In this document: positions 5,031 through 10,700 of the stretch, in pieces | How positions within the stretch are numbered: the first letter of the stretch is position 1 | Layout: each line of letters begins with the position of its first letter | Assembly: GCF_016865485.1 (NCBI RefSeq) | Contig: NZ_AP024452.1 | Location: 1,448,501-1,512,500, forward strand | Length of the DNA stretch: 64,000 nt | Direction: 5' to 3' | DNA from: Luteitalea sp. TBR-22 | GTDB lineage: Bacteria; Acidobacteriota; Vicinamibacteria; Vicinamibacterales; Vicinamibacteraceae | Notes under the pieces: generated by a model | Told to the model about the DNA's origin: nothing | What the model saw: only the letters and a program-made list of their open reading frames with translations | Database searches by the model: none | Program-made: the position numbers and the translations under genes

Positions 5031-5537
5031 CGCGTCGGCGTCGCGGACCCGCGCGCTCGCCGCACCGGGACGACCAACGCCTCTCATGCCGGACGATCGC
5101 GTGTCGGCGTCGCGGCACTGCCGGATACGCGGCGGGATGATTCTCGCGTAGGTCTCCTCCTACACCGCTGGCGCGTTCCCGCCAGCGGCCGCCGCACGTC
5201 GACGACGCCGCTGCGCACCCACGCACGGAATCCCTCGAAATCAGGCGCGTTTTCGAACGGTCGTGCGGCGCGGCCCGGCTGCGGCATGCCGTGATTCCGT
5301 CAGGGGTATCGCGCTGGCGTCGCAAAGCCGCGATGGCGACTCCGAAAGTCGCCATTTTCGCGCGCACTTACCGCTTGGATGGCCTCCGCTGCTGCGCTAT
5401 TCTCCGCCTGCATCGTCCGCGGTTGCCGACTTTCCGGCAGCGCGTCCGGTGTGTCGCACTCGCGAGCGGAGGACGCCGGCATGTCGACGTGCCTGCCTCC
5501 ACTTCACGCGCCGCTCGCTGCGAGAAGGAGACGTGAG
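5031..5537. other. Leader region of the cytochrome operon
   Basis: About 500 bp without a supported gene. Besides the hairpin at 5333-5358 it contains a less GC-rich stretch around 5390-5450, where the promoter of the cytochrome operon would be expected; no consensus boxes are convincing. A strong Shine-Dalgarno sequence (GAGAAGGAG, 5522-5530) lies just before the first cytochrome. Confidence 0.45.
5333..5358 (+). terminator. Hairpin with T run ahead of the cytochrome operon
   Basis: ATGGCGACT (5333-5341) and AGTCGCCAT (5347-5355) form a perfect 9-bp stem with a 5-nt loop, followed by TTT on the plus strand. It lies 354 bp past the helicase stop and 180 bp before the first cytochrome, so it could end helicase read-through or act as an attenuator in the cytochrome leader. 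Confidence 0.5.
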
Positions 5538-5864
5538 ATGAAGCGTATTGCCACGGGTGCCGTCCTTGCCGCCATCGTCGCCCTCCCGTCCGTGCTGAGC
5601 GCACAGGACATCGAGAAGGGCAAGGCCGTGTACGCGGCCAACAAGTGCCAGACCTGCCATGCCATCGAGGGCAAGGGCAACAAGAAGTTCCCCCTCGACG
5701 GGGTGGGCGGCAAGCTGTCGACCGCCGACATCACCAAGTGGATCACGGCGCCCGCCGAGATGGAAGCCAAGCTGGCCGAGAAGCCCAAGATTCACATGAA
5801 GGCCTACAAGCTGGCTGACGAGGACCTGAAGGCCCTCGTGGGCTACATGGCGAGCCTGAAGTAG
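5538..5864 (+). CDS. Periplasmic monohaem cytochrome c
   Basis: A 108-residue class I-type cytochrome c. A cleavable signal peptide (MKRIATGAVLAAIVALPSVLSAQ) precedes one haem-binding CQTCH, and a Met in the IHMKAYKL segment is a candidate axial ligand. It should shuttle electrons in the periplasm between the inner-membrane quinol dehydrogenase and the decahaem conduit encoded next. ATG at 5538 is chosen because GAGAAGGAG lies 7 nt upstream and the signal peptide starts there. It is the first gene of a four-gene unit that continues 9 bp later with the NapC/NirT-type gene. Confidence 0.92.
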   Translation: MKRIATGAVLAAIVALPSVLSAQDIEKGKAVYAANKCQTCHAIEGKGNKKFPLDGVGGKLSTADITKWITAPAEMEAKLAEKPKIHMKAYKLADEDLKALVGYMASLK

Positions 5865-5873
5865 GGGTGTGCT

Positions 5874-7271
5874 GTGACTGACGGCCGGCCCATCCTTCCG
5901 CGCGCGTTCACCGCGCACCCGCTGGCCGCCCTGGGGGCCGCGCTCACGACGTTGAGCGCGGTGCTCTTCCTGCTCTTCTGGATCATCGAGAGCGCGGGTT
6001 GGCTGGAGAATCCGTACCTCGGGCTCCTGACCTTCGTCCTGCTCCCGGCCCTGTTCGTGTTCGGGCTGGTGCTGATCCCTGCGGGCCTCTGGCTCGCCCG
6101 TCGCCGTGAGCGCGCCGGCAAGGGACCATTCCGCTGGCCCTCGCTCGATCTCACCGACGCGCGCGTCCGCGGCTGGGTCTTCCTCATCGGCATCGCCACC
6201 ATCCTCAACACCCTGCTGGTGACGATGGCGGCCACCGAGGCCGTGCACTACATGGATTCGCCGGCGTTCTGCGGGCAGGTCTGCCACACGCAGATGAATC
6301 CGCACTACGTGCAGTGGCAGCGCGGGCCGGCCCACACCAAGGTGGCGTGCGCGAGCTGTCACATCGGCACCGGGGCGAAGGGCTTCGTGATGGCCAAGAC
6401 CCGTGGCACGGCGCAGCTGCTGCACGTGATCACGGGCAAGTACCCGACGCCGGTCCCGACGCCGCTCGAGTACCGTCCGCCGGCCGAGCAGACCTGCGGC
6501 AAGTGCCACGAGGCGACCCGCTGGATCGGCGAGCGTCGTCGCCTGTTCACCGACATCGGCGAGGACCAGGCCAATACCCCGACGCAGACGCTGCTGACGC
6601 TGCTGGTCGGCGGCACCAGGCCGGATGGATCGGCCACCGGCTTCCACTGGCACGCCAACCCGGGCAACGAGATCGAGTACATCGCGACCGACGAGCACCG
6701 CGGAAAAATTCCCTGGGTCCGCGTGAAAAACGCGAAGGGCGAGGTCAAGGAGTTCGTCGTCGAGGGGTTCGATCCGGCCAAGGGCGGTGAGCGCCGCCGG
6801 ATGGACTGCATCGACTGCCACAACAAGGTGGCGCACCCGTTTGCGGCCAGTGCCGAGCGCGCGGTCGATCGCGCGATCGTCGATGGCCGTCTCGACGCCC
6901 GCCTGCCGTTCCTGCGACGCGAGGCGGTGAAGCTGCTGAAGGCCGAGTACGCCACGCACGAGCAGGCGCGCACGGCAATTGCATCAGCGCTCGAGAAGTT
7001 CTACGCCGGGGGCGAGGGCGCCGCCGCCGGCCCCGTGGACCGTGGTGCAGTCACGGCCGCGTCCCGCGTGCTCGCGGAGTTGCACGGCGCCTACGTCTTC
7101 CCGGCCATGAAGGTCACGTTCGGCACCTACATCAGCAACGGTGGGCACACCGACGCCGACGGCTGCTTCCGGTGCCACGACGACGAGCACAAGGCCAAGG
7201 ACGGCTCGGTCATCAAGCAGGACTGCGAGACGTGTCACCGGGAAGAGGAGATCGCCCCCGCGACGGAGTGA
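5874..7271 (+). CDS. NapC/NirT-type multihaem quinol dehydrogenase
   Basis: 465 residues. Two or three hydrophobic segments (about 15-40, 45-70 and 105-125) anchor a periplasmic multihaem domain. Haem motifs are CGQVCH (a CX3CH variant with Met three residues on, as in NapC/NrfH-type first haems), CASCH, CGKCH, CIDCH, CFRCH and CETCH. The role is to take electrons from (or give them to) the quinone pool, like CymA or ImcH. The start is GTG at 5874, 9 bp after the first cytochrome, with AGGGG upstream. Its place before an MtrA/MtrB-type pair makes it the inner-membrane entry point of the conduit. The direction of electron flow cannot be read from sequence. Confidence 0.9.
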   Translation: MTDGRPILPRAFTAHPLAALGAALTTLSAVLFLLFWIIESAGWLENPYLGLLTFVLLPALFVFGLVLIPAGLWLARRRERAGKGPFRWPSLDLTDARVRGWVFLIGIATILNTLLVTMAATEAVHYMDSPAFCGQVCHTQMNPHYVQWQRGPAHTKVACASCHIGTGAKGFVMAKTRGTAQLLHVITGKYPTPVPTPLEYRPPAEQTCGKCHEATRWIGERRRLFTDIGEDQANTPTQTLLTLLVGGTRPDGSATGFHWHANPGNEIEYIATDEHRGKIPWVRVKNAKGEVKEFVVEGFDPAKGGERRRMDCIDCHNKVAHPFAASAERAVDRAIVDGRLDARLPFLRREAVKLLKAEYATHEQARTAIASALEKFYAGGEGAAAGPVDRGAVTAASRVLAELHGAYVFPAMKVTFGTYISNGGHTDADGCFRCHDDEHKAKDGSVIKQDCETCHREEEIAPATE

Positions 7272-7333
7272 GCGCGGCGAGGGCGGAAGCACGACGACGC
7301 ACCTGATCGCGCCCAGGTGCTGGAGAGGATGAA

Positions 7334-8386
7334 ATGAGGCGAGCAGCGAAGGCGTGGACCGGCATCATCGCCGTGTTCACGGTATGGGTGGCCGTCACCG
7401 TCACGTCGATTGGCGTGAAGGCGACCGCCGACCAGGAAGGCGTCGTGCGGCCGCAGCCGCGCGCCGCCGCGACCCCGGTGGCCCCACTGCCGCCGGCCAC
7501 CCCGCCGCACGCGGCGCTGGCGACCGGCACCGGCAAGTTCAAGGCCACCCTGGCCAACGGCCAGCCGGCGCCCGGCTACACGGGCGATGACGTCTGCCTG
7601 CAGTGCCACGAGGCGCAGGGCAGCATCAACAAGACCCCGCACGGCCGTGCCAAGAACCCGCGCACCCCGATGGCCAACAACGGCTGCGAGAGCTGCCACG
7701 GCCCGGGCCAGGCGCACGTCGACGACGACGACAAGGGCAAGATCCTCAAGTTCGGCGACACCAAGGTCGACGCCCGCACCGGCAACGAGACCTGCCTGTC
7801 CTGCCACACCAAGGGGCCGCATGCCCTGTGGGACGGCAGCGCGCACGACGCGCGCAACCTCGCGTGCGCCTCGTGCCACAGCGTCCACTCGCCCAAGTCG
7901 GCCGAGAACCAGCTGAAGGCCGAGGATCAGGGCACGCTGTGCGCCACCTGCCATCGCCAGCAGTCGGCCAAGATGCGCCGCGCCTCGCACATGCCGGTGA
8001 CCGAGGGCAAGATGGAGTGCTCCTCGTGCCACAACCCGCACGGGGCGACCAACGTCAAGCTGCTCAAGGTCGGCAACTGGATCAACGAGTCGTGCGTGAG
8101 CTGCCACGCCGAGAAGCGCGGCCCGTTCCTGTACGAGCACGCGGGCGGTCGCGAGAACTGTGTGAGCTGCCACGATCCGCACGGGTCGCCGCACGAGCGC
8201 ATGCTCGTGGCGAAGGTGCCGATGCTCTGCCAGCGGTGCCACAACCACTCGCGGCATCCCCCCACCATCTACGACCAGGCGCAGTTGAACAACAAGAGCA
8301 ACCGCATGCTGTCGCGCGGCTGCGTCAACTGCCACTCGAACGTCCACGGGTCGAACCACCCCGCGGGCAAGACCTTCCTGCGCTAG
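7334..8386 (+). CDS. Decahaem cytochrome c, DmsE/MtrA family
   Basis: 350 residues with an N-terminal signal segment, a Pro/Ala-rich linker (about 40-70) and exactly ten CXXCH motifs: CLQCH, CESCH, CLSCH, CASCH, CATCH, CSSCH, CVSCH, CVSCH, CQRCH and CVNCH. Ten haems in about 280 residues, with SCHGPG and SCHNPHG spacing, is the hallmark of MtrA/DmsE/PioA, the haem wire that fills an outer-membrane barrel. GGAGAGG just before the ATG is a strong ribosome-binding site. The matching barrel starts 13 bp after its stop. No DmsAB-type reductase or MtrC/OmcA-type surface cytochrome lies in the window. Confidence 0.95.
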   Translation: MRRAAKAWTGIIAVFTVWVAVTVTSIGVKATADQEGVVRPQPRAAATPVAPLPPATPPHAALATGTGKFKATLANGQPAPGYTGDDVCLQCHEAQGSINKTPHGRAKNPRTPMANNGCESCHGPGQAHVDDDDKGKILKFGDTKVDARTGNETCLSCHTKGPHALWDGSAHDARNLACASCHSVHSPKSAENQLKAEDQGTLCATCHRQQSAKMRRASHMPVTEGKMECSSCHNPHGATNVKLLKVGNWINESCVSCHAEKRGPFLYEHAGGRENCVSCHDPHGSPHERMLVAKVPMLCQRCHNHSRHPPTIYDQAQLNNKSNRMLSRGCVNCHSNVHGSNHPAGKTFLR

Positions 8387-8399
8387 AGAGGAGACGATC

Positions 8400-10559
8400 A
8401 TGACGACACGCATGCTTGCCGTCGGCCTGTTCGGCGCCCTCCTGTGCGCCACGCCGACATCGGCCCAGACCCCGTTCGGGCAGCCGCCAGCCGACGACGC
8501 ACAGGCGGGGCCGGTGCTCGACCCGAACTTCCGCTCGATCGACTTCGGCGTCCGCTTCACCGACGTCGACGGCGACGAGGCGCGCCTGCAGCGGTACCGC
8601 GACCTGCGCACCGGCCCGGTGGTGCAGGGCTTCCGCTGGACCAGCGAGAACCAGGACCGCCTGTGGCGGCTCGAGGCCGACAACGTCGGCTACCGCGACC
8701 AGCGCTATTCGGGTGAGTTCGAGCAGTTCGGTCGCTTCAAGGGCTGGTTCCAGTACAACCAGATCCCGTACTTCCAGTCGAACGTGACGCGCACGCCCTA
8801 CACCGTGGAGAGCTCCACGGTGGTGACCGTGCCCGACTCGATGCAGACCGCGATCGGTACCGGCGTGGCGACCCTGCCCGGCATCGTCGACCAGTTCGCC
8901 AACCCGTTCGAGCTGCGCGTCAAGCGCGACATCACCAGCCTCGGCGGGCAGTATCAGCTGAACCGTGCGACCGACATCAACTTCTCGTTGATCTCGACCG
9001 GCCGCAGCGGCAACCAGCCGTGGGGCGCGAGCTTCGGCATGGCGTCGACGCAGGAGATCCCGGCGCCGATCGAGCAGCGCGACACCCAGATCGCGGCCAA
9101 CCTGGAGTGGGCCAACAAGACGGCGATGTTCCGCGCCGGCTACGACGGCTCGCTGTTCAACACCAGCACCGACACGCTGACCTTCGACAACCCGCTGCGC
9201 ATCACCAACACGAGCACCGCGACCTCGATCGGCCGCCTCTCGCGCTGGGCAGGCAGCTCGATGCACACCCTCTCGGCCACGGGCTCGATCGCCCTCCCGG
9301 CCCGGAGCCGCGTCATCGCCTACGTGGGGCAGTCGACGATGACCAGCGACGCCAACATCCTGCCGTGGACCATCAACCCGGCGATCACGCCGCCCCCGCA
9401 GGAGCGCACCGCGCTCGAGGGCGAGGTCGACGTGACGTCGCTGATGCTGCGGTTCAACTCGCGCCCGACGCGCTGGATGTGGCTCAACGCCAACTACCGC
9501 AGCTACGACCTGAACAACAAGACGCCGGTGTTCGAGTACACGCAGCGCGTCGCGTACGACACGACGCTCGGTGCGTCGGTCGGCGAGAGCGAGCCCGTCT
9601 CGATGGACCGTGACCTGCTCGAGCTCGACGCGTCGCTGACGCCCTTCCGCAACGGCGCTTTCCGCGTCGGCTTCGTCCGGGAAGACGTCCAGCGGACGTT
9701 CCGCATCTTCGACACGACCGTCGAGGACACGTTCCGGGTCGGCTACGACTGGACCTCCAACAAGTGGTTCACGGTCCGTGCCGACTGGTCGACGGCCGAG
9801 CGCCGCGGCGAGGGCTTCAATCCGGAGATCCTCGAAGAGGTGGGCGAGCAGCCCGGCATGCGTCACCCCGACGTCGCCAACCGCGACAGGGACCAGGGCC
9901 GCGTGATCCTGACGGCCATGCCGACCGATTCGCTGTCGCTCAACTTCACGGCCTCGGCCGGCACCAACGACTACGTCGACACGTCGTACGGCCTCAGGGC
10001 GAACGACTTCTCCTCGTGGGGCTTCGGCTTCGACTTCGCCCCCAGCGACGCGTTCAACCTCGGCGCCAACTACGTGAGCGAGGACATGACCTCGCTGACG
10101 ACCAGCCGCACCGCCAACCCGGCGCCAGACCCGGGCTTCTTCGACCCGCGGCGCGACTGGAACGACGACATCGAGGAGAACGTCGAGACCGTGAGCGCGT
10201 ACCTCGAGGTGCCGAAGATGTTCAGCAAGCTCGACTTCGCCGCCAACTACGACTACACGAAGGCCGACACGTCGTGGAACTACACGCTCGTGCCGAACAC
10301 GGTCCTGCCCACGCCGATCCAGCTCAACCCGGTGAGCAACGCCTGGACGCAGCTGCGCCTCGACACCAAGTACTGGCTGCGCCGCAACCTCGCGCTCGGC
10401 GTGACCTACATGTTCGACAAGTTCGACGTGTCGGACTGGGCCCTGAGCCCGACGACGCTCGACCGCCTGGCGTACTCGAACACCTTCATGCTGATGAACT
10501 ACACCTGGGAGAACTACACGGCCCACACGGTGTGGCTCAAGGCGACGTACCTCTGGTAG
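8400..10559 (+). CDS. MtrB/PioB family outer-membrane beta-barrel (decahaem-associated)
   Basis: 719 residues: signal peptide (to about ATPTSA, residue 22), then a long run of alternating hydrophobic and polar strands rich in Tyr, Trp and Asn, ending in an aromatic residue (ATYLW), as outer-membrane barrels do. Family features include GFRWTSENQDRLWRLEADN near the start and GYRDQRY. It sheathes the decahaem cytochrome and carries electrons across the outer membrane. No CXXC is seen near the N-terminus, unlike Shewanella MtrB. The ribosome-binding site GAGAGGAG lies upstream. The last base of the stop codon is the first base of a heptad array, and a terminator hairpin follows at 10611. Confidence 0.9.
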   Translation: MTTRMLAVGLFGALLCATPTSAQTPFGQPPADDAQAGPVLDPNFRSIDFGVRFTDVDGDEARLQRYRDLRTGPVVQGFRWTSENQDRLWRLEADNVGYRDQRYSGEFEQFGRFKGWFQYNQIPYFQSNVTRTPYTVESSTVVTVPDSMQTAIGTGVATLPGIVDQFANPFELRVKRDITSLGGQYQLNRATDINFSLISTGRSGNQPWGASFGMASTQEIPAPIEQRDTQIAANLEWANKTAMFRAGYDGSLFNTSTDTLTFDNPLRITNTSTATSIGRLSRWAGSSMHTLSATGSIALPARSRVIAYVGQSTMTSDANILPWTINPAITPPPQERTALEGEVDVTSLMLRFNSRPTRWMWLNANYRSYDLNNKTPVFEYTQRVAYDTTLGASVGESEPVSMDRDLLELDASLTPFRNGAFRVGFVREDVQRTFRIFDTTVEDTFRVGYDWTSNKWFTVRADWSTAERRGEGFNPEILEEVGEQPGMRHPDVANRDRDQGRVILTAMPTDSLSLNFTASAGTNDYVDTSYGLRANDFSSWGFGFDFAPSDAFNLGANYVSEDMTSLTTSRTANPAPDPGFFDPRRDWNDDIEENVETVSAYLEVPKMFSKLDFAANYDYTKADTSWNYTLVPNTVLPTPIQLNPVSNAWTQLRLDTKYWLRRNLALGVTYMFDKFDVSDWALSPTTLDRLAYSNTFMLMNYTWENYTAHTVWLKATYLW

Positions 10560-10597
10560 GGAACCGGGCACCGGGATCCGGGTTCCGGGCTCCGGGG
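10559..10597. repeat. Heptad array (GGGNNCC) starting inside the mtrB stop codon
   Basis: GGG recurs exactly every 7 bp at 10559, 10566, 10573, 10580, 10587 and 10594, giving GGGAACC, GGGCACC, GGGATCC, GGGTTCC and GGGCTCC. The first G is the last base of the TAG stop. The G runs with 4-nt loops also satisfy the pattern of a three-tetrad G-quadruplex. Confidence 0.9.
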
Positions 10598-10610
10598 CTC
10601 GGATGACATG

Positions 10611-10640
10611 CGAAGGGCGCCTCCAACGAGGCGCCTTTCG
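10611..10640 (+). terminator. Terminator hairpin of the cytochrome conduit operon
   Basis: A 13-bp stem with one G.T pair (CGAAGGGCGCCTC / GAGGCGCCTTTCG) and a CAAC loop is followed by TGTCT. It sits 52 bp after the barrel gene and is the natural end of the four-gene operon. Confidence 0.7.
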
Positions 10641-10700
10641 TGTCTCTGGGACAATGCCGCGTAAATGGCGCGATGCCGGGAATGCCGTTGGCCACGAAGG

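Follow-up and report, generated by a model that had tools for sequence, protein, structure and literature searches.

Luteitalea sp. TBR-22 carries a four-gene cytochrome cluster, cytc-imcH-mtrA-mtrB, that very probably connects its respiratory chain with the cell exterior. The evidence supports a conduit of the porin-cytochrome type with a link to a quinone-pool cytochrome, and we consider it likely that electrons run outward through it, from ImcH via MtrA/MtrB to an extracellular acceptor.

Layout and families of the operon

The four genes all lie on the plus strand of TBR-22 at positions 5538-10559 of the window, the whole 64-kb stretch of DNA that was analysed (Table 1), with gaps of 9, 62 and 13 bp. 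Flanking them are genes for a DEAD-box helicase and a glycerophosphodiester phosphodiesterase (GDPD). From the sequence, we infer that they form one operon and are transcribed together. The hairpin 3' of mtrB lacks a long T tract and is absent from the output of a terminator scan; it probably marks the transcript end. The upstream block was kept in two of the three congeneric upstream regions to which it was aligned, and the window has one copy of its inverted repeat against 0.46 expected, making the block a candidate promoter/operator of the operon.

Table 1. Features of the cytc-imcH-mtrA-mtrB operon (positions in the window)
Feature	Position	Strand	Details
Upstream block TGCGCTATTCTCCGCCTGCA ... 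TGCCGACTTTCCGGCA	5390..5439	+	Aligned to upstream regions of three congeners
Monohaem cytochrome c, predicted secreted	5538..5864	+	108 aa, one CXXCH; PF00034 (Cytochrom_C) 45 bits
ImcH-family hexahaem cytochrome, predicted inner membrane	5874..7271	+	GTG start, 465 aa, one CX3CH and five CXXCH
MtrA-type decahaem cytochrome	7334..8386	+	350 aa, ten CXXCH; TIGR03508, 6r2q_A
MtrB/PioB-type barrel, predicted outer membrane	8400..10559	+	719 aa, no haem motif; PF11854, TIGR03509, 6r2q_B
GC-rich hairpin after mtrB, strong	10603..10640	+	RNA fold of 10596-10645, -29.2 kcal/mol

MtrA matched the TIGR03508 model of DmsE-family decahaem cytochromes with 259.6 bits (cut-off 192) and chain 6r2q_A of the Shewanella MtrAB structure with E = 1e-60. 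When aligned with Shewanella MtrA, to which it is 41% identical over the aligned region, the ten haem motifs all coincide, as do ten additional histidines. MtrB scored 317 bits against PF11854 (MtrB_PioB; cut-off 23), 242 bits against TIGR03509 (cut-off 240) and E = 6e-22 against the Shewanella chain 6r2q_B. It has a signal peptide, about 26 predicted strands and a C-terminal Trp, and contains no CXXC. Its AF2 model, built from five sequences and of low confidence (pLDDT 57), likewise has about 26 strands; the best PDB match of this low-confidence model was 6r2q_B (E = 9e-11), with a TM-score of only 0.3. The locus thus pairs an MtrA/DmsE-family decahaem with an adjoining MtrB/PioB-family barrel gene 13 bp away, as MtrAB and PioAB do. 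With Shewanella MtrAB(C) it shares the decahaem, the barrel family and the adjacency of A and B; it differs in that the operon has no MtrC, the barrel has no CXXC and the quinol oxidase is ImcH-type and encoded within the same operon.

The MtrA match is to a model that NCBI names "DmsE family", which would suit a DmsEF-type module feeding an extracellular molybdoenzyme for DMSO, iodate or similar. That model covers MtrA-type decahaems generally, and neither flank of the operon holds a DmsAB molybdoenzyme gene, so we regard such a module as very improbable. The first-pass annotation had described four linked genes in one orientation, 9-62 bp apart, as a conduit tied to a quinone-pool cytochrome, and both points hold in light of the family matches of MtrA and MtrB, their solved relatives and the architecture of the membrane cytochrome.

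An ImcH-type membrane cytochrome

The same annotation had called this membrane cytochrome NapC/NirT-type. A partial match to PF03264 (NapC/NirT; 31.6 bits) speaks for that label, which is nonetheless too loose: judged by its sequence features, the protein has the full ImcH architecture. The defining features of ImcH are an N-terminal domain of three membrane helices, an atypical CX3CH motif and five to nine CX2CH motifs (PMC6295460). In the TBR-22 protein, hydropathy gave three N-terminal segments (residues 15-45, 46-77 and 98-121), and an AF2 model (pLDDT 81) placed helices at 16-40, 47-80 and 96-127. The CX3CH motif (CGQVCH, residues 133-138) comes directly after this membrane domain, and five CX2CH motifs follow at residues 159, 208, 312, 431 and 451. 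Across an alignment of 37 sequences, the cysteines and histidine of CX3CH and all five CX2CH haems were invariant. A Foldseek search of the AF2 model against the PDB gave no significant match to a solved structure. In CymA/NapC tetrahaem quinol dehydrogenases a single N-terminal helix goes with four CX2CH haems; six haem motifs and three predicted helices speak against this identity for the operon's protein.

As far as its description goes, Geobacter ImcH resembles the TBR-22 protein in its three N-terminal helices, CX3CH, several CX2CH motifs and NapC/NirT-like core; the TBR-22 protein has five CX2CH motifs, not six, giving six haems in total. Identity to ImcH-like proteins encoded close to CbcL-like genes in Syntrophus and Desulfuromonadales MAGs was 35-36% over the whole alignment and 37% locally. 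A 2018 survey of 71 ImcH homologues found mtrAB adjoining imcH in none of them (PMC6295460).

The monohaem cytochrome c encoded upstream has its haem motif (CQTCH) at residue 37, after a hydrophobic, signal-like N-terminal stretch, and its gene is co-located with imcH at many loci of the order Vicinamibacterales. It is a candidate periplasmic shuttle from ImcH to MtrA.

Conservation and surface cytochromes

The genes stay linked in close relatives. Their order on one strand is the same in two other Luteitalea genomes (G003 and G037), with 57-84% protein identity, which argues that the arrangement is not due to chance. Loss of the operon in a third congener (G016) was considered and rejected: the contig breaks off inside its cytochrome c gene, whose 61 available residues show 89% identity, so that what follows is probably just unassembled. 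Across Vicinamibacterales, 31 of 60 imcH loci had MtrB within 12 kb, mostly on the same strand and about 1.1-1.7 kb downstream of imcH, with a decahaem mtrA between them, and the MtrB-linked loci cluster in the ImcH phylogeny. In some relatives the same imcH-mtrAB cluster has an inserted split CbcL, a further type of inner-membrane EET quinol oxidase. A permuted version occurs in Acidobacteriaceae, where the barrel is not recognised by the Pfam MtrB model. Tested as an MtrB homologue, this barrel gave no more than a weak profile match of local extent (83%), but it matches the barrel of Blastocatellia loci over its full length.

No surface decahaem of the OmcA/MtrC family is encoded in the operon. 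OmcA/MtrC was found in only three of 149 Vicinamibacterales genomes and MtrB in 68, so MtrAB without MtrC is the norm in the order. The earlier statement that a surface cytochrome is missing thus applies to the operon and to most relatives. It does not extend to the whole TBR-22 genome, where an OmcA/MtrC-family relative, half-length, pentahaem and below the family cut-off, lies 298 kb from the operon. This half-MtrC is unlikely to be a regular cap, since two congeners that carry the operon lack it.

The content of the closed TBR-22 genome was assessed by targeted searches. These found a second mtrAB, few other multihaem cytochromes and no RuBisCO; a search run without a positive control found no split-CbcL 11-haem protein.

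Parts of the conduit were already known. A 2018 study lists mtrA/mtrB for Luteitalea pratensis and other Acidobacteria (PMC5900883), and mtrCAB was reported for Acidobacteriia in 2022 (PMC8805035), so the suggestion that the locus widens where such conduits occur has to be withdrawn. The imcH and mtrAB combination is itself reported in a 2026 metagenome paper, which describes group-2 porin-cytochrome clusters with ImcH/NapC-like proteins in cave MAGs (PMC13264449). These clusters and those of L. pratensis are essentially the same as ours, with a small decahaem, a large porin and often an ImcH-like protein; a conserved unit with a monohaem cytochrome or split CbcL is undescribed in the available text of either paper.

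Direction of electron flow

In the outward conduit that we favour, ImcH in the inner membrane would oxidise (mena)quinol and pass electrons to MtrA, directly or via the co-encoded monohaem cytochrome c. MtrA, seated within the MtrB barrel, would carry them across the outer membrane to a metal oxide, a humic substance or some other oxidant, whether soluble or bound to a surface. The contact point would be the outer haem of MtrA or an unlinked protein, for instance the pentahaem half-MtrC. Functionally, the ImcH family is characterised by a quinol oxidation that high-potential extracellular acceptors require. Outward flow is favoured because ImcH has so far been tied to quinol oxidation alone, RuBisCO is missing from the genome and the operon has no CymA or PioC partner.

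MtrAB modules are electrically reversible, and direction therefore cannot be fixed from sequence. An inward conduit of the kind proposed for PioAB/MtoAB, with MtrAB accepting electrons from Fe(II), a mineral or a partner cell and quinone being reduced by the membrane cytochrome, would draw on this reversibility. It would also fit the absence of MtrC common to TBR-22 and the Pio/Mto systems, a likeness pointed out in the first-pass annotation that stands, and a survey of Fe(II) oxidation that counts PioA/MtoA homologues in Acidobacteriia (PMC10654088). The remaining evidence points the other way. The partner at the inner membrane is ImcH, accompanied by a monohaem cytochrome, with neither CymA nor the PioC HiPIP in the cluster; ImcH homologues have been seen only among Fe(III) reducers and are considered to oxidise quinol (PMC6295460); MtrA lacks the N-terminal extension of about 270 residues seen in PioA; and TBR-22 is a heterotrophic isolate from duckweed, a plant surface (PMC8852301). 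The lack of RuBisCO also counts against inward flow; it leaves room for carbon fixation by another route or for mixotrophic Fe(II) oxidation. On balance, we judge inward flow unlikely.

The isolates TBR-22 and L. pratensis were, according to their descriptions, grown with no special acceptor. Eichorst 2018 classifies L. pratensis as aerobic, with a high-affinity oxidase, and concludes that Shewanella/Geobacter-type Fe(III) reduction is not used by such strains, because their operons lack the remaining mtr/omc genes (PMC5900883). That aerobic lifestyle, the plant-surface origin of TBR-22 and the scarcity of other multihaem cytochromes would suit a redox-balancing outlet that dumps electrons to humics or other oxidants under O2 limitation and does not support growth. 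Its hardware would be identical to that of respiration, sequence cannot separate it from the outward conduit, and the fact that different families have kept the genes suggests a lasting benefit; we give it a slim chance.

The outward conduit may belong to something broader. We put forward, tentatively and as somewhat doubtful, that ImcH with MtrAB is a phylum-wide, co-inherited module of Acidobacteriota, including the split-CbcL and permuted versions, with the Acidobacteriaceae barrel as a family unrecognised as MtrB. The module would work without an MtrC-type surface cytochrome and endow ordinary "aerobic" acidobacteria of soils and plants with an extracellular mode of respiration, one dismissed because the mtr/omc operon seemed incomplete. 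Acidobacteriota rank among the most common bacteria in soil, and a large share of them could respire or dump electrons extracellularly if the operon works as proposed. The ImcH partner would then predict the direction in which the electrons move, a prediction that can be put to a direct test because TBR-22 is in culture and its genome is closed.

ImcH-type cytochrome and MtrAB in the operon

Gaps of 9, 62 and 13 bp separate the four plus-strand ORFs of the operon (table), which is flanked by a DEAD-box helicase upstream and a GDPD enzyme downstream, with a strong hairpin predicted by RNA folding 3' of mtrB. The first-pass annotation had called the membrane cytochrome NapC/NirT-type, and a partial match to that family stands, but the protein is ImcH-type. 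It has three membrane helices (residues 15-45, 46-77 and 98-121 by hydropathy; 16-40, 47-80 and 96-127 in an AF2 model, mean pLDDT 81), a CX3CH at residue 133, followed by five motifs of the CX2CH type. ImcH homologues, with few exceptions, show three N-terminal transmembrane segments, an adjacent atypical CX3CH and five to nine CX2CH; CymA, in contrast to the window protein, is a tetrahaem protein with a single short membrane segment (Zhong and Shi, PMC6295460). In an alignment of 37 sequences, including proteins encoded near CbcL-like genes in Syntrophus and Desulfuromonadales MAGs, the cysteines and histidine of the CX3CH are invariant, as are the five haem motifs that come after it.

MtrA and MtrB matched their chains in the Shewanella MtrAB crystal structure 6r2q (E 1e-60 and 6e-22, respectively). 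All ten CXXCH motifs of MtrA and ten further histidines coincide in the alignment, enough histidines for a fully bis-histidine haem chain to be possible.

Features of the operon, of variant loci and of other haem-protein loci (C1, TBR-22 genome contig in whole-genome coordinates; L-numbers, locus handles)
Feature	Position or loci	Strand	Remark
Monohaem cytochrome c, secreted-type shuttle candidate	5538-5864	+	PF00034
Membrane multihaem cytochrome (ImcH-type)	5874-7271	+	NapC/NirT match, partial
MtrA/DmsE-family decahaem	7334-8386	+	family match
MtrB/PioB barrel	8400-10559	+	family match
Pentahaem half-MtrC, 433 aa	C1:1156046-1157347 (L162)	minus	matches C-terminal half of OmcA/MtrC family
Second mtrAB, 304-aa decahaem and 821-aa barrel	C1:2085922-2089311 (L003 8923-12312), ~2.086 Mb
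NrfH-like tetrahaem and five-CXXCH partner	C1:5536706-5538912 (L166)	minus
Sensor kinase, two CXXCH motifs	C1:220822-224282 (L163)		close to tetrahaem cytochrome
Putative split-CbcL pair	L058, L060, L064, L145, L146, L150-L152, L154, L155, L157, L159		upstream of imcH
Permuted Acidobacteriaceae loci	L063, L079, L082, L103 and about 30 similar

Conservation and variants of the unit

Linkage of the four genes in close relatives, which the first-pass annotation had set as a test, was borne out: gene order is identical in G003 (7,480,314 bp) and G037, the two Luteitalea genomes with full assembly of the region. The encoded proteins are 57-84% identical, and both genomes also keep the helicase upstream. 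A congener that seemed operon-negative, G016, was discounted; its contig stops within the cytochrome c gene. At 5390-5439, a block upstream of the operon holds CTATTCTCCGCCTGC and the inverted repeat TGCCG-N6-CGGCA, whose arms are retained in G003 around a different centre; the block is absent in G037.

Among 149 sampled Vicinamibacterales genomes, 68 have PF11854 barrels, and 31 of the 60 imcH loci scored have MtrB within 12 kb, a lower bound since some unlinked imcH loci lie at contig ends. The barrel mostly lies 1.1-1.7 kb downstream of imcH on the same strand, with a decahaem mtrA between them in the linked loci that were read. None of 71 previously surveyed ImcH homologues had mtrAB adjoining imcH (PMC6295460). 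In an ImcH tree (midpoint-rooted, built by a quick method, with weak support for deep branches), linked loci grouped within the Vicinamibacterales part, with neighbour genes gained or lost. One cytc-imcH-mtrA-mtrB operon inside this group lies on a contig labelled Acidimicrobiia (Actinomycetota; L072), probably from a mislabelled or contaminated MAG.

In several other families two more cytochromes, one with 9-11 haems and one b-type, are encoded between cytochrome c and imcH. The multihaem protein shares 30-34% identity with the N-terminal part of fused 9-haem CbcL-like proteins and the b-type protein 47-48% with their C-terminal part; by sequence the pair corresponds to the two halves of a split CbcL, a further quinol oxidase of extracellular electron transfer (EET; PMC6295460). 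Many such loci unite both EET quinol oxidases and mtrAB in one cluster. The Acidobacteriaceae order is permuted and runs from the decahaem through barrel and monohaem cytochrome to imcH; their putative barrel protein (~780-900 aa) had no Pfam family, a GSU2204-family trace in one of three examined, and only weak, local profile similarity to MtrB.

Surface partner and other haem proteins

The earlier claim that a surface cytochrome is missing is true of the operon, but the single-contig genome (6,468,984 bp) holds an unlinked pentahaem half-MtrC (189.9 bits against a family cut-off of 209.3; PF22113, 103 bits) with no obvious lipobox. Because it was not found in two congeners having the operon, it cannot be a required cap. 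OmcA/MtrC-family proteins occur in 3 of the 149 genomes, TBR-22 included; MtrC-less MtrAB is the rule in the order.

The second mtrAB is preceded by a response regulator and a sensor kinase and lacks imcH. A genome search for spaced double-CXXCH patterns, for which controls gave zero, matched only an ActA-like protein, ImcH, two MtrAs, one 2.834 Mb locus and an NrfH-like protein; the pattern misses wider-spaced proteins such as the tetrahaem at 0.224 Mb. The NrfH-like protein and its partner are probably NrfHA, which suggests nitrite ammonification. The tetrahaem cytochrome at L163 matched no NCBIfam model; redox sensing is possible for the kinase beside it.

Direction of electron flow and novelty

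Although direction cannot be fixed from sequence, outward conduction, from quinol through ImcH to MtrA in MtrB, seems fairly probable. Inward flow draws support from the MtrC-less MtrAB common to Pio and Mto. Outward flow is favoured by ImcH, which is reported from Fe(III) reducers only, implying quinol oxidation (PMC6295460), by the heterotrophic isolate, by the lack of RuBisCO in a search of the TBR-22 genome (control genomes behaved as expected) and by the putative split CbcL of relatives. For such an outward conduit, our guess is that the monohaem cytochrome would act as shuttle, given its co-location and the few other multihaem proteins in the genome.

The host had been taken for a likely soil acidobacterium; the phylum is right, but TBR-22 (class Vicinamibacteria) was isolated from the fronds of rice-paddy duckweed (PMC8852301) and is plant-associated rather than a soil isolate. 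Nor does the operon widen where such conduits occur, as had been proposed: Eichorst and colleagues (2018, PMC5900883) list mtrA/mtrB for Luteitalea pratensis, and Baker and colleagues describe mtrCAB in Acidobacteriia (PMC8805035). Of eight decahaem-porin clusters in a 2026 metagenome paper (PMC13264449), six include proteins resembling ImcH or NapC. The operon thus adds a member to a known type. Against the open-access literature, with earlier notice elsewhere possible, what is new is the ImcH type identified in the operon, the order-wide linkage count, the putative split-CbcL and permuted variants, and MtrAB without MtrC as the rule.
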